A DNA stretch of 21,212 nt, taken from positions 1 to 21,212 of the IMG/VR virus record IMGVR_UViG_3300044695_003290; one strand, written 5' to 3'. A program made the position numbers and the translations under genes. This stretch comes from a virus. Of this stretch, positions 9,294 through 15,054 are shown one piece after another. How positions within the stretch are numbered: the stretch's first letter is position 1; each line of letters begins with the position of its first letter. Under the pieces are notes generated by a model that saw only the letters and a list, made by a program, of their open reading frames with translations, searched no databases and was not told where the DNA came from.

Positions 9294-9509
9294 TTATTCT
9301 GATTTAAAGGTTTCGTTGTAGTATTGTTCAAATCCATATTGACTATTATAAGCATCGGCTAAATAAGATTTTCTTATCTGCTCCTTTTCCATTGCTTTGG
9401 CTTGTTCAAATACACCTTTAGGTAATGTAATATGCATTTCTTCAGTTTCTTTGTTAATTGAAGCGGCTAATATTTGAGATATTAACCATTCTACTGCTGT
9501 TTGTTTCAT
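9294..9509 (-). CDS. Triplicated small family, copy A (71 residues)
   Basis: The protein begins MKQTAVEWLISQILAASIN, has FEQAKAMEKEQIRKSYLADA in the middle and ends EQYYNETFKSE. These three blocks define a small-protein family that I recall from flavobacterial phages; two further members lie at 10179-10403 and 11763-12113. It is helical and acidic, with no catalytic or metal site. The role is unknown. DNA at both ends is almost identical to the other copies (9484-9502 matches 12091-12109; 9295-9329 matches 10180-10214), which points to recent duplication or recombination between copies. The start overlaps the stop of the exonuclease gene (ATGA). Confidence 0.8.
   Translation of the reverse strand: MKQTAVEWLISQILAASINKETEEMHITLPKGVFEQAKAMEKEQIRKSYLADAYNSQYGFEQYYNETFKSE
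9295..9329 (-). repeat. 35-base direct repeat, copy 1
   Basis: These 35 bases differ by a single base from 10180-10214 and encode the last residues (QYYNETFKSE) of two paralogous genes. A shorter, 18-base version with one mismatch remains at 11747-11764, beyond the stop of the third paralog. Confidence 0.85.
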
Positions 9510-10178: not shown

Positions 10179-10403
10179 CTATTCTGATTTAAAGGTTTCA
10201 TTGTAGTATTGTTCTCCACCATCCCCAGCTTCATTACTCCAATCTGATTCGTTTCCCTCATTAAAAGCATTAATTATGTGTTCCTGTTCCATTTTTTCAG
10301 CTTGTTCAATAGTTCTTGTAACTAATATTGTATCAAGACTTATTTCAAGTGACATATAATATTTTATTGTTTCAACCAAATATTTTACTCCTGTCTGTTT
10401 CAT
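10179..10403 (-). CDS. Triplicated small family, copy B (74 residues)
   Basis: The protein begins MKQTGVKYLVETIKYYMSLE, has RTIEQAEKMEQEHIINAFNE in the middle and ends GGEQYYNETFKSE. It is the most diverged of the three copies at the N-terminus, while its last 35 coding bases match copy A with one change. It is helical and acidic; function unknown. The ATG at 10403 is preceded by an AT-rich leader (AAAATTTTAAATT) much like that of copy C. It lies directly before the exonuclease gene, so the family seems tied to recombination genes, though whether by function or by shared DNA repeats is not known. Confidence 0.8.
   Translation of the reverse strand: MKQTGVKYLVETIKYYMSLEISLDTILVTRTIEQAEKMEQEHIINAFNEGNESDWSNEAGDGGEQYYNETFKSE
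10180..10214 (-). repeat. 35-base direct repeat, copy 2
   Basis: This copy matches 9295-9329 at 34 of 35 positions. It covers the C-terminal codons of the second paralog and ends 3 bases before the start codon of the exonuclease gene, so such a repeat marks a gene junction in each case. Confidence 0.85.
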
Positions 10404-11746: not shown

Positions 11747-11764
11747 TATTCTAATTTAAAGGTT
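11747..11764 (-). repeat. Truncated copy of the junction repeat
   Basis: These 18 bases match the first 18 bases of the 35-base repeats (9295 and 10180) with one change, but here they lie mostly beyond the stop codon (11763-11765) of the third paralog. They would encode a Phe-Lys-Leu-Glu end that is no longer reached, so they look like a scar left when the gene's end was replaced. Confidence 0.7.
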
Positions 11765-12113
11765 AAACAATGTCATGTTTTAAATTACAATCAACACAAA
11801 TAAAAAACTCTTTATCAGTTTTGCTGCTTTCAAGTTTTCCAATGCAATATCCATTATCAATTATTTTTCTTTTGTTGCACCAATCACATTTTTTAGTTTT
11901 ACTTATTTTATTTGTATAAAATTTTTCTAAATATTCTTTAGAAACCTTTTGTTCATTAAAAGTAAGACCGTTAAAATCAGAAAACTTTTTAGCAAAATCA
12001 ATTACCATATCCTTCTCCATTTCTTTGGCTTGTTCAATTTCTTCATCTGTTACAACTTGTGCAAACCCTTGTTTGTTTAACCGACTAATCAACCATTCTA
12101 CTGCTGTTTTCAT
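11763..12113 (-). CDS. Triplicated small family, copy C with added zinc ribbon (116 residues)
   Basis: The first 40 residues (MKTAVEWLISRLNKQGFAQV, then DEEIEQAKEMEKDMVIDFA) match copies A and B. In place of the usual EQYYNETF end there is a longer part with CDWC (76-79), a Cys at 90 and CVDC (106-109), a probable four-Cys zinc ribbon. The gene thus looks like a fusion of the small family with a zinc-binding module, and the old end remains as a noncoding scar at 11747-11764. Its first 19 shared bases are identical to copy A. A promoter-like site (12136-12143) with the repeated spacer lies in front. Function unknown; nucleic-acid or protein binding is plausible for the ribbon. Confidence 0.8.
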   Translation of the reverse strand: MKTAVEWLISRLNKQGFAQVVTDEEIEQAKEMEKDMVIDFAKKFSDFNGLTFNEQKVSKEYLEKFYTNKISKTKKCDWCNKRKIIDNGYCIGKLESSKTDKEFFICVDCNLKHDIV

Positions 12114-12135: not shown

Positions 12136-12163
12136 CAAATATAGTTATTCTTTTTAATATAAT
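12136..12163 (-). promoter_or_regulatory. Promoter-like site P3 with repeated spacer
   Basis: TATATTTG (12136-12143, minus strand) is preceded by the same 17-base spacer TTATATTAAAAAGAATA as P2 and P4, and followed by AAACAATTAAAA. The -33 TTG is not present (GAA instead), so it may be weaker or need an activator. It overlaps the end of the NinG gene. Confidence 0.6.
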
Positions 12164-12675
12164 TCTAATTGTTTAATCTTTTTTTTATAGATGTTAATTA
12201 TTTCCTTTAACTCTTCCTTTGTAAACTTCCGTGTTTTATGACCTTCCGCTTCTAAAAGTGTTAATTGTTCTTCTCCTATCTTGTTAATTAATCCTTTGCG
12301 ATATTCAATTAAATTACCTGAAAGATACGTGTTACAATGTTCGCACTGAAGATGAACATTTAATTCATTAAAACGAACGTTCCAATGGTTGTTAGCGTTG
12401 AAGTAGTGACCTGCGTTTTCTTTTAATGGTTTCTTTTGGCAACTTATACAAACTTGACCTTTATCTCTTAATCTGATATACTTATTAAAAATAATTTGAG
12501 TAGCTTTTATTAGTTCCTGTATAGTCTCAAGATCGTTTTTCATTTTAGCTTTCGTCTTTTTCCAAGTCTTTGCCTTTTCGGATTCTACCCAAACACGAAC
12601 ACACTCATCTTTTAAGCAGTATTTTTGAAGGAATTTAATAGGCTCAAATTTCTCTTTACAATGTTTACACTTCAT
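12154..12675 (-). CDS. ninG: NinG/Rap-type recombination nuclease
   Basis: The protein has 173 residues. The N-terminus holds a small zinc-type site (CKHC at 3-6, Cys 20 and Cys 25). The core CISCQKKP (76-83), AGHYFNANNHWNVRFNELNV (88-107) and CEHCNTYLSGNLIEYRKGLI (111-130) is the NinG family signature, with an HNH-like arrangement of His and Cys. Lambda NinG (Rap) resolves branched recombination intermediates such as Holliday and D-loop junctions, and the same role is inferred here beside ERF and YqaJ genes. Its start overlaps the preceding stop (ATGA), placing it at the end of the replication operon. The + strand copy of AAACACGAA at 12591-12599 lies inside. Confidence 0.93.
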   Translation of the reverse strand: MKCKHCKEKFEPIKFLQKYCLKDECVRVWVESEKAKTWKKTKAKMKNDLETIQELIKATQIIFNKYIRLRDKGQVCISCQKKPLKENAGHYFNANNHWNVRFNELNVHLQCEHCNTYLSGNLIEYRKGLINKIGEEQLTLLEAEGHKTRKFTKEELKEIINIYKKKIKQLELY

Positions 12676-13172: not shown

Positions 13173-14117
13173 TCAAAAAGGGTTTTGCTTTAACTTTTCA
13201 GAAAACGAAATTAATTCTTTTCCGTTAACAATGTCAGGTTCAATTAAAGGAAGTTGTTTAGGTTTTATTGGTTCGTGTTTTCGTAATGGGTCAACTGAAT
13301 TAATCTTGAACCCTAAGCCGTTGTTAAATTCACAAAGTACAGGTTCATCCAACCTTGTATGCATTCCGCCCGTGTCCATGTCTTTAATTTTTTCTACATT
13401 AACCATAGTGTAATATTTCATTGTTTCGTGTTTTATTAAACGATGAATAACAAACATATCGTCACATCTATTTAGAAATGCTTTTCCACCTTCAACGTGG
13501 TCTTTTAATGGCGGCTTCAGATGACCTTTCCACATATGATTTTCAGCGTATAAATTACCACTCCTTCCACTTTCAGAATTCGGATGCGTGTTTATGTAAA
13601 TTGTAATTCCTGTTTGGTTTACAAATTGCCGTGCTTCATTTAAGAAATTGTAGTTACCTTCAAAAGTCATCGACCTATCTAAACCTGTAAACGGGTCAAT
13701 TAATGCAGCATCGCATTCGCTTTCCTTAAATAGCTTCAAAAGTTCGGTAGGTTTGTAAAGTTTATCATTCGGGATAAAATCAAAATACTGCTCTAAATAT
13801 GTAGCCGTGCTTAATATCTTTGAATCTTCAATTTCAGTAAACTTTTGCCCTAAATACATTTGAATCATATCACGCAGGATTTGACCTTTTTGGTTTTCAC
13901 CGCTCCAAATACAAAATCGTAGTTCGTGTTTTACTGCTAAAGTCAAAAAATACCAATTTATCCAATATGTTTTCCCGACATTATCGTGACCGAGAATTAT
14001 GTTTAACTGCTTACGTTTAAATCTAAGGTGATTATCTAAGTCACATCCTATAGAATAACCTTTCTTAATCTTTCCGTGTTTATAATCGAGCAGGTATTGT
14101 ATTGAATCTCCTTTCAT
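13173..14117 (-). CDS. RecA/DnaB-fold ATPase, replicative-helicase-like
   Basis: The protein has 314 residues. Walker A GHDNVGKT lies at 43-50. IWSGEN at 70-75 matches the motif with the catalytic Glu of DnaB-type helicases. Walker B is DAALID at 136-141, and ITIYINTHPNSE near 170 is the sensor-like strand after it. DnaB helicases are usually longer because of an N-terminal primase-binding domain, absent here, so this is a core-only or RepA-like helicase ATPase. It probably unwinds DNA at the phage origin together with the initiator encoded just upstream (ATGA overlap at 14114-14117). AAACACGAA occurs three times in this gene (13272, 13425, 13923), each read as Lys-His-Glu. Confidence 0.85.
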   Translation of the reverse strand: MKGDSIQYLLDYKHGKIKKGYSIGCDLDNHLRFKRKQLNIILGHDNVGKTYWINWYFLTLAVKHELRFCIWSGENQKGQILRDMIQMYLGQKFTEIEDSKILSTATYLEQYFDFIPNDKLYKPTELLKLFKESECDAALIDPFTGLDRSMTFEGNYNFLNEARQFVNQTGITIYINTHPNSESGRSGNLYAENHMWKGHLKPPLKDHVEGGKAFLNRCDDMFVIHRLIKHETMKYYTMVNVEKIKDMDTGGMHTRLDEPVLCEFNNGLGFKINSVDPLRKHEPIKPKQLPLIEPDIVNGKELISFSEKLKQNPF

Positions 14118-14767
14118 AATCCTAATTGTTTGTTAACGTATTCTACTAATGGGTCAATAACTTGTTTTTCGTATTGTTTAGGATTTCTACTATACCAAGT
14201 TGATAATCTTTGTTTGATACCAAAAGTTTTTTCCTTTTCAAATCTAAGTTTTTTATCATTTTCTCCGTGTTCACTCCAGTAATTAAAAAAGTCACGTAAC
14301 ATTTGTTTTGGATATTCTTCAACATATTCAGTAAGTGAATCGTAAAACTTGATTTTACGTTCTTCTATTGTTATTTGTTTATTTGTTTCTTGTTTATTTA
14401 TACTACTATTGCTTTCACGTTGCTTTGTTCCGTGCTTTATCATTGCTTTATCAAGTGCTTTATCAGGTGCTTTATCAAAATTTGATAGGGCAACTATATT
14501 ACTTGAATACTGATTTTTACTTTTTTCAATCAAGTTTATAAACCCAAACTCCACTAAATCATTCAGCGTATTTATATAAGTGTTATAACTTCTTATTCCA
14601 ATAGCTTCTTTTGCCATCGTTGTAGGAAGTCCGAATTTTTCCTTCCAACCTAATCGATTACAATGTTCAATTATAAAAAAATAAAGTGCCGTGTGATTTG
14701 GATTGATTCGTTCAGGATTCTCAAAACTCCAATCAAACCATTTCCTACTTAATTCATAACTATTCAT
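14114..14767 (-). CDS. Replication initiator-like protein (winged helix plus DnaD/DnaT-like end)
   Basis: The protein has 217 residues. Residues 1-95 look like a winged-helix DNA-binding domain (SYNTYINTLNDLVEFGFINL, then IEKSKNQYSSNIVALS). A polar linker (about 97-140) includes a repeated Asp-Lys-Ala unit (DKAPDKALDKAMIKHG) and Gln/Asn-rich sequence. The C-terminal part (YPKQMLRDFFNYWSEHGEND, RFEKEKTFGIKQRLSTWYSR) resembles ends of DnaD/DnaT-like helicase-loading proteins. It likely recognises the origin and loads the ATPase encoded next. The linker-coding DNA holds four direct repeats that could be the origin itself, as in lambda O. It overlaps the helicase start (ATGA) and the end of the 56-residue gene. 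Confidence 0.8.
   Translation of the reverse strand: MNSYELSRKWFDWSFENPERINPNHTALYFFIIEHCNRLGWKEKFGLPTTMAKEAIGIRSYNTYINTLNDLVEFGFINLIEKSKNQYSSNIVALSNFDKAPDKALDKAMIKHGTKQRESNSSINKQETNKQITIEERKIKFYDSLTEYVEEYPKQMLRDFFNYWSEHGENDKKLRFEKEKTFGIKQRLSTWYSRNPKQYEKQVIDPLVEYVNKQLGL
14433..14477. repeat. Four direct repeats (iteron-like) inside the initiator gene; candidate origin
   Basis: On the + strand TGCTTTATCA occurs four times, at 14433, 14444, 14456 and 14468, with spacing of 11, 12 and 12 bases, about one helical turn. An AT-rich stretch lies on both sides (14370-14405 and 14477-14500). Placement in the linker-coding part of an initiator gene resembles the lambda O/ori arrangement. The origin role is inference; the repeats are seen directly. 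Confidence 0.65.
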
Positions 14768-14930
14768 TGTTAAATTTTAAAAAATTCATTAACTCTATAA
14801 CATCTTCAGGTTCTAAAACGTAATATGTAGTAGCGTGACCATTTAAAATTGAAACGCCTATTGCATTTCCATCTAAATAAACAAATTCAATTTCCCCATT
14901 TTCATTTTCTCCTTTCAAACAATTTCTCAT
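14760..14930 (-). CDS. Small protein, 56 residues, first gene of replication unit
   Basis: The frame encodes MRNCLKGENENGEIEFVYLD, then GNAIGVSILNGHATTYYVLE and PEDVIELMNFLKFNNE. It looks like a compact beta/helix protein with an acidic surface; no family is recognised. It starts at ATG 14930, 20 bases behind the U-tract of the leader hairpin, and its stop overlaps the initiator gene by 8 bases. Because it is the first gene after the attenuator-like leader, its product or translation might take part in control of the replication genes, but nothing proves this. Confidence 0.75.
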   Translation of the reverse strand: MRNCLKGENENGEIEFVYLDGNAIGVSILNGHATTYYVLEPEDVIELMNFLKFNNE

Positions 14931-14950: not shown

Positions 14951-15043
14951 AAAAAAAACCCTCGCTTTATCCGTAGCCTTCGACCTCTACTTCAAAAACA
15001 AGGGTAATAATACCTTAGCACTTATAATGTCGAAGGAGTGCGT
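14951..15043 (-). ncRNA. Structured leader RNA with terminator hairpin (attenuator-like)
   Basis: About 90 bases between the promoter-like box at 15047 and the first replication gene hold several pairings on the minus strand. CCTTCGAC (15029-15036) pairs perfectly with GTCGAAGG (14977-14984). GCACT (15037-15041) pairs with AGTGC (15018-15022). ACCCTTG (14999-15005) pairs with CGAGGGT (14958-14964, one G-U) and is followed by eight U (14951-14958), a terminator. ACCCTT can instead pair with AAGGTA just upstream (15010-15016), so a terminator and an antiterminator form are both possible, and the 8-base stem crosses the terminator stem as a pseudoknot. Whether it is an attenuator, riboswitch-like element or independent small RNA is open. 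Confidence 0.65.
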
Positions 15044-15046
15044 TTA

Positions 15047-15054
15047 CAAATATA
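15047..15054 (-). promoter_or_regulatory. -7 box of replication-operon promoter
   Basis: TATATTTG matches the Bacteroidota -7 element exactly, 5 to 8 bases before the structured leader. No good TTG is found 19-22 bases upstream, so the promoter may be weak or activated. It lies directly behind the stop of the 63-residue gene. Confidence 0.5.

Follow-up and report, generated by a model that had tools for sequence, protein, structure and literature searches.

A structured leader RNA with two kissing hairpin loops heads the replication operon of many flavobacterial phages

The window analysed here, a viral stretch of 21,212 nucleotides (IMG/VR record IMGVR_UViG_3300044695_003290), carries a group of replication genes on its minus strand. 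A preliminary description made from the sequence alone had placed an attenuator-like leader directly before these genes, and this position holds: the leader runs from 15054 to 14951 and the ATG of a 56-codon ORF follows at 14930. The genes concerned are:

14760..14930, minus strand: 56-residue ORF, the first gene after the RNA, with its start codon 20 nt past the T tract; no PHROGs or Pfam match
14114..14767, minus strand: replication initiator-like protein (phrog_19415; weak match to phrog_18020, 'replication initiation O-like')
13173..14117, minus strand: replicative helicase-like protein (phrog_18375, phrog_239, phrog_19)
12154..12675, minus strand: NinG/Rap junction endonuclease (phrog_171, 9.7e-51)

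Read in the direction of transcription, the leader is composed of the following elements:

15047..15054, minus strand: -7 box TATATTTG (Bacteroidetes TAnnTTTG); homologues have the same box at the same spacing
between -7 box and P1, minus strand: 5-nt spacer
15037..15041, minus strand: 5' arm of hairpin P1, GCACT (fold, covariation)
15029..15036, minus strand: kissing word of loop 1, CCTTCGAC
15023..15028, minus strand: remainder of loop 1, ATTATA (in the close family ANTATA); the search pattern fixed part of these letters, and unselected members vary here
15018..15022, minus strand: 3' arm of P1, AGTGC (fold, covariation)
15006..15017, minus strand: linker of 12 nt, TAAGGTATTATT
14995..15005, minus strand: 5' arm of P2, the terminator stem, ACCCTTGTTTT
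14991..14994, minus strand: 5' side of an internal loop, TGAA
14987..14990, minus strand: 5' arm of hairpin P3, GTAG (covariation)
14977..14984, minus strand: kissing word of loop 3, GTCGAAGG, preceded by AG (14986-14985)
14973..14976, minus strand: 3' arm of P3, CTAC (covariation)
14969..14972, minus strand: 3' side of the internal loop, GGAT, where G.A pairs with TGAA are possible
14958..14968, minus strand: 3' arm of P2, AAAGCGAGGGT, whose final T is the first of the T8
14951..14958, minus strand: U8 tract; a T tract is also found in homologues

The -7 box, the perfect 8-base long-range stem, the short local stem GCACT/AGTGC and the terminator stem with its eight U are all present as first described. 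The proposed pseudoknotted, attenuator-like leader is supported as well, except that a second small hairpin, GTAG/CTAC, had been missed. This hairpin lies inside the terminator and carries the 3' partner in its loop, so that the 'long stem' is in fact a loop-loop (kissing) helix: the P1 loop contains CCUUCGAC, the P3 loop contains GUCGAAGG, and the kissing words of the two loops form a perfect 8-bp complement. The 5' end of the RNA is predicted to lie a few nucleotides past the -7 box, around 15043-15041, and its 3' end would be expected near 14951. P1, P2 and P3 all emerge unprompted in the minimum-energy fold. Plain minimum-free-energy folding of the leader was not significant (z -1.2), since such folding cannot count the kissing helix, which as a duplex amounts to -11.6 kcal/mol.

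This leader is a member of a widespread structured RNA family without a counterpart in Rfam 15. None of the 4227 Rfam families scored above its gathering threshold, either in the whole window or in 12 diverse member loci, which bears out the earlier impression that no known RNA family applied; CRISPR-repeat, miRNA, snoRNA and RgsA matches of the leader alone, listed when E was allowed up to 10, had E values of 2-8 and were dismissed as chance. Similarly, no description of this RNA was found in open-access full texts (subscription papers and supplements excluded). The 18-mer GTAGAGGTCGAAGGCTAC is found unchanged in 29 further IMG/VR contigs, every one of them with the complete arrangement, and a looser pattern around the window's code matched 59 stretches, a few of them by chance. 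Scans fixing part or none of the kissing word led to about 155 IMG/VR loci with 17 kissing 8-mers in total, and more than 25 different kissing words are known overall. Element lengths are rigid, the linker measuring 11-13 nt in nearly all members, P1 5-7 bp and P2 about 11-12 bp. In a scan where loop-loop pairing was not a selection criterion, a downstream complement to loop 1 accompanied all 77 distinct pattern matches with a terminator hairpin vs 1 of the 18 without a terminator. Searching with a descriptor that covers the full architecture (P1, P3, the terminator and an 8-bp complement between the loops) gave 183 matches in 2.37 Mb of phage DNA, made up of loci fetched partly with patterns of the RNA itself, against 5.6 expected from its 272 matches in 114 Mb of dinucleotide shuffles. 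The window's kissing code, the one code scanned in bacterial genome contigs, returned two matches there, both chance-looking.

Covariation in homologous leaders, which the preliminary description had set as its own test, is strong for P1, P2, P3 and the kissing helix. In alignment A1 (53 representatives), P1, the kissing helix and P3 together show 97.8% standard pairs vs 70% in column shuffles, 254 cells changed on both sides vs 70, and a covariation score of 0.74 vs 0.19. Compensatory changes affect all four pairs of P3 and three of the five pairs of P1, as well as 8 of the 11 pairs of P2, which is 97.6% paired. The kissing helix is 100% paired across the 53 sequences, with compensatory changes in six of its eight pairs; the 100% is inflated by the collection of A1 rows through exact complementarity, but compares with the unselected 77 of 77 mentioned above. 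The claim left unsupported is that of mutually exclusive forms, in which the 5' arm of the terminator would pair with a segment just upstream: such an antiterminator (AAGG/CCTT) can be drawn in the window, and its covariation score, at 0.015 vs 0.020 in shuffles, does not exceed the background.

The search patterns themselves dictated some of the 'conserved' letters (ANTATAA, ATTATT, the -7 box) and also biased the close family. Consequently, we relied on loci retrieved through a protein. Two sets, each of 80 viral contigs, were collected by the initiator protein alone and not by the RNA, set 1 comprising relatives of the window's initiator and set 2 relatives of Cellulophaga phi19:3 gp007, which is DUF6291-type. 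Covariance model R1 gave clear matches before the gene in 28 contigs of set 1 (of 80, at E<1e-5) and 18 contigs of set 2 (of 80). Divergent members exhibit new words with complementarity kept, namely CGTCTGAC, GCTCTCAC, GTCTTCAC and GCTTCCAC, and also GGCTGGAC and GTGAGACG. A descriptor independent of the kissing sequence asked for a promoter box, a terminator and complementarity over 6 nt or more between the leader and the loop of the terminator. Written after examples had been seen, some of them from the second set, it matched 78 of the 160 upstream windows, compared with 1 of 800 shuffled and 0 of 284 downstream ones. Among the flavobacterial phage initiator loci sampled, about half would have this conserved and apparently unannotated regulatory RNA at the head of their replication operon; by the same descriptor about half of the 160 have no such element upstream, which counts against an attenuator explanation. 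Different-looking leaders upstream of DUF6291-type initiators in loci L338 (CAAAGACA/TGTCTTTG) and L369 (GGCTATGA/TCATAGCC) also match the descriptor and may be either analogous elements of other phage groups or chance matches.

Seven records of cultured flavophages (11b, tooticki, hemulen, elemoA, phi19:3, phi13:2 and Harreka) contain the RNA in divergent sequence, in the intergenic stretch before the initiator operon, with the same layout and kissing words of their own:

Flavobacterium phage 11b: CGGGCAGG/CCTGCCCG
Flavobacterium phages tooticki6-1 and hemulen9-1: GTGAGACG/CGTCTCAC
Flavobacterium phage elemoA: TGAGAGC/GCTCTCA
Cellulophaga phi19:3 and phi13:2: CTCTCACAA/TTGTGAGAG
Olleya Harreka: GTGGTGG/CCACCAC
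Polaribacter Danklef, a weaker case: GGTGGAA/TTCCACC

Loop shuffles gave p values from 0.001 to 0.03 per cultured phage, and the Fisher combined p of 2.6e-13 (cultured phages and four divergent viral contigs) is indicative, the regions having been chosen by eye. The RNA is annotated in none of these records. With blastn, three members retrieved only chance-level pieces from INPHARED, so the cultured homologues had to be reached via the initiator gene. The same initiator search also led to Bacteroides LoVEphage and Riemerella CRP5/CRP6, in which no element was seen upstream of the initiator. The cultured carriers (11b, Muminvirus, Lillamyvirus, Elemovirus, phi19:3, Harreka) are open to direct testing.

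The distance from the T tract to the start codon is 10-29 nt in 148 of 158 loci, while the first gene varies between DnaD/O-like initiators, DUF6291 proteins, NUMOD4 HNH proteins, ParB_N proteins, BT4734-like/PriCT primases and small ORFs. Such a near-constant distance in front of differing genes fits a cis-acting leader. A promoter followed by a folded 90-nt body and a terminator would also constitute a complete small-RNA gene, and nearly all contigs hold one copy per locus, so the element might be an independent phage small RNA acting elsewhere. This we consider very improbable, as the constant short gap to ever-changing first genes ties the RNA to the gene downstream, as do the start-codon copies found in some lineages (see below). 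A few contigs bear two such RNAs, each preceding a separate operon and using a separate code:

offsets about 5020 and 7394, minus strand: the two RNAs of L273
offsets 7989 and 12193: the two RNAs of L120
offsets 1927 and 6201: the two RNAs of L127

We think it rather probable that the RNA acts in cis as a transcription attenuator of the replication operon, using a kissing-loop terminator mechanism like that of guanidine-IV riboswitches. Comparison of the members points to a common plan of promoter box, 5'-terminal P1, P2+P3 terminator, 7-9-bp kiss and a first gene just downstream, in which the promoter, the 5' end and the termination of the leader are predicted features. RNA polymerase would start a few nucleotides before P1; loop 3, on emerging from the enzyme, would be captured by loop 1 during synthesis of the 3' arm of P2. 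The linker of 11-13 nt would then be too short, a straight P1-kiss-P3-P2 stack leaving the outermost 2-3 G-C-rich pairs of P2 open. With the kiss formed, the terminator would be kept from closing and transcription would continue into the genes (ON); without the kiss, the terminator would close and an RNA of about 90 nt would be released (OFF). By a crude rod estimate that assumes straight coaxial stacking, and whose strain any bends would relax, a stack of P1(5-6)+8+4+3+12 layers spans 90-92 Å, which requires 6.9-7.7 Å per linker step (12-nt or 11-nt linker) with P2 complete and 5-6 Å with its outer 2-3 pairs open. This estimated strain would fit the rigid element lengths. Kissing complexes can bend, and the kiss and the full terminator may therefore coexist. 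Another point against a regulated attenuator is that an 8-bp kiss should be stable without any ligand.

The authors of the guanidine-IV work proposed that the rigidity of the kissing structure puts the linker under tension and prevents the outer terminator pairs from forming (PMC7736828), and there are further precedents for competition between a kissing loop and a terminator (PMC11611296, PMC9788692). The guanidine-IV class (GGAM-1/mepA, Gd4v) shares with the phage RNA a pair of hairpins whose loops base-pair, with a Rho-independent terminator as the 3' one, a short linker, a site just before the regulated gene and a proposed strain between kiss and terminator (PMC7736828, PMC9788692, PMC11611296). 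Compared by description, the phage RNA has start-codon copies in some of its lineages, and its 7-9-bp kiss of many sequences would stand in place of a conserved ligand pocket. Guanidine-IV RNAs precede sugE/mepA-like transporter genes, whereas the phage RNA precedes initiators, DUF6291, HNH, ParB_N and primase genes and small ORFs. The shared architecture raises the question of whether the phage RNA is itself a metabolite riboswitch, with a ligand at the kissing junction (3' side of loop 1, linker and G-A internal loop) setting the terminator. The unpaired nucleotides of the close family (ANTATAA, TTATT, GAA/GGA) are highly conserved, which speaks for such a role. However, ANTATAA and ATTATT are partly pattern-imposed and vary in protein-fetched loci and cultured phages, so that it is mainly the helices that are common to all members. 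Moreover, the downstream genes point to no single metabolite and no Rfam riboswitch matches, and we regard a ligand-sensing role as quite unlikely. If the kissing-loop attenuator operates as outlined above, it would be a naturally occurring terminator switch, programmable by sequence and with over 25 kissing codes, of use for studying tertiary-contact control of intrinsic termination and for building orthogonal attenuators.

Some lineages carry the loop-1 word once more, as a third copy that abuts the first gene's start codon and varies together with the kissing code. Examples and loci are:

L111 and relatives: ACTTCGACAATG
L336: AGTCGCAGAATG; L301: TGTTGCAGATG; L313: AAGGCAGTAAAATG
L027: ACAACCACAATG; L376: CCACTACACCATG
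third copy at the downstream ATG: L111, L112, L114, L115, L119, L122-L124, L128, L138, L139
further loci with a third copy: L012, L017, L027, L301, L313, L315, L321, L336, L337, L376

Agreement between third copy and local code is seen in 9 of 58 dereplicated initiator loci, vs 0.23 (maximum 2) after permuting the words among the loci. A third copy is also found in one sub-lineage with the window's own loop-1 word, while the window and most of its close family have none at the start codon, a further point against the attenuator reading. Where the copy is present, loop 3 can pair either with loop 1 or with the translation start. In these lineages, an unkissed loop 3 in a leaked transcript could mask the start codon and act as a second lock. 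Extending this idea, the RNA alone might form a two-level, code-addressed switch in which loop 3 pairs with loop 1 (read-through) or with the start-codon copy (translation block), and in which the released RNA may feed back in trans on transcripts of the same code, resulting in programmable and mutually orthogonal replication control. We advance this broader scheme as speculation and consider it unlikely.

Plasmids of the pT181 and pIP501 type also place transcription attenuation before the replication initiator gene, through an antisense, counter-transcribed RNA, whereas the phage elements all lie on the same strand of one transcript. Another comparison is with the seqA-seqB-seqC immunity of satellite phage P4, where RNA pairing in the leader shuts off the replication genes by premature termination and the CI RNA pairs with one copy upstream (seqA) and one downstream (seqC) (PMC4825925). 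Complementary copies are seen here in part, the upstream one always and the downstream one in some lineages. Loop 1, loop 3 and the start-codon copy follow the same order and logic. The phage RNA differs in that its antisense word lies within the loop of the terminator itself; the upstream copy occupies the loop of the 5' hairpin, and the downstream copy is at the start codon. By analogy, loop 3 of the released RNA of about 90 nt could pair with loop 1, and with the third copy, of other nascent transcripts and force their termination, giving code-specific copy-number feedback or superinfection immunity. The agreement of third copies with the local code and the differing codes of the two RNAs within one contig (L273, L120/L127) speak for such trans control. 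Against it, most members, the window included, lack the third copy, and the same contigs show no enrichment of kissing words outside the element (10 vs about 18 expected on the sense strand). Nothing tested indicates lysogeny for these phages either. The kissing helix is also not more variable than P1, P2 and P3 among close relatives but less so, hence shows no sign of diversifying selection on the code, an idea that was rejected. On balance, P4-like control in trans appears unlikely.

As a structured RNA of about 70-90 nt near the promoter of a phage operon, the element also invites comparison with the put RNA of HK022, a small structured cis RNA of an early operon that affects termination by acting on RNA polymerase without phage proteins (PMC9378689). 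The folded 5' RNA might likewise bind the elongation complex and suppress its own and later terminators. However, put consists of two stem-loops with neither a built-in terminator nor a kissing helix (PMC9378689), whereas the second hairpin of the phage RNA is the terminator, and we consider antitermination of this kind improbable.

The first gene in many loci is a very divergent ORF of 54-71 aa whose sequences align weakly, and it is conceivable that this small ORF is an autoregulator. In L027, L289, L313, L337, L343 and L376, a short reading frame begins at an ATG immediately behind loop 1 and runs through the RNA (MKQRIFILTLVLKTPRG... in L027, for instance); it may encode a leader peptide. 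Elsewhere in the window, the ORFs 9294-9509, 10179-10403 and 11763-12113 start similarly (MKQTAVEWL, MKQTGVKYL and MKTAVEWL), and two of the three end in YYNETFKSE and overlap the next gene. Similar ORFs are present in L127 and L273, which suggests a repeated small-gene module.
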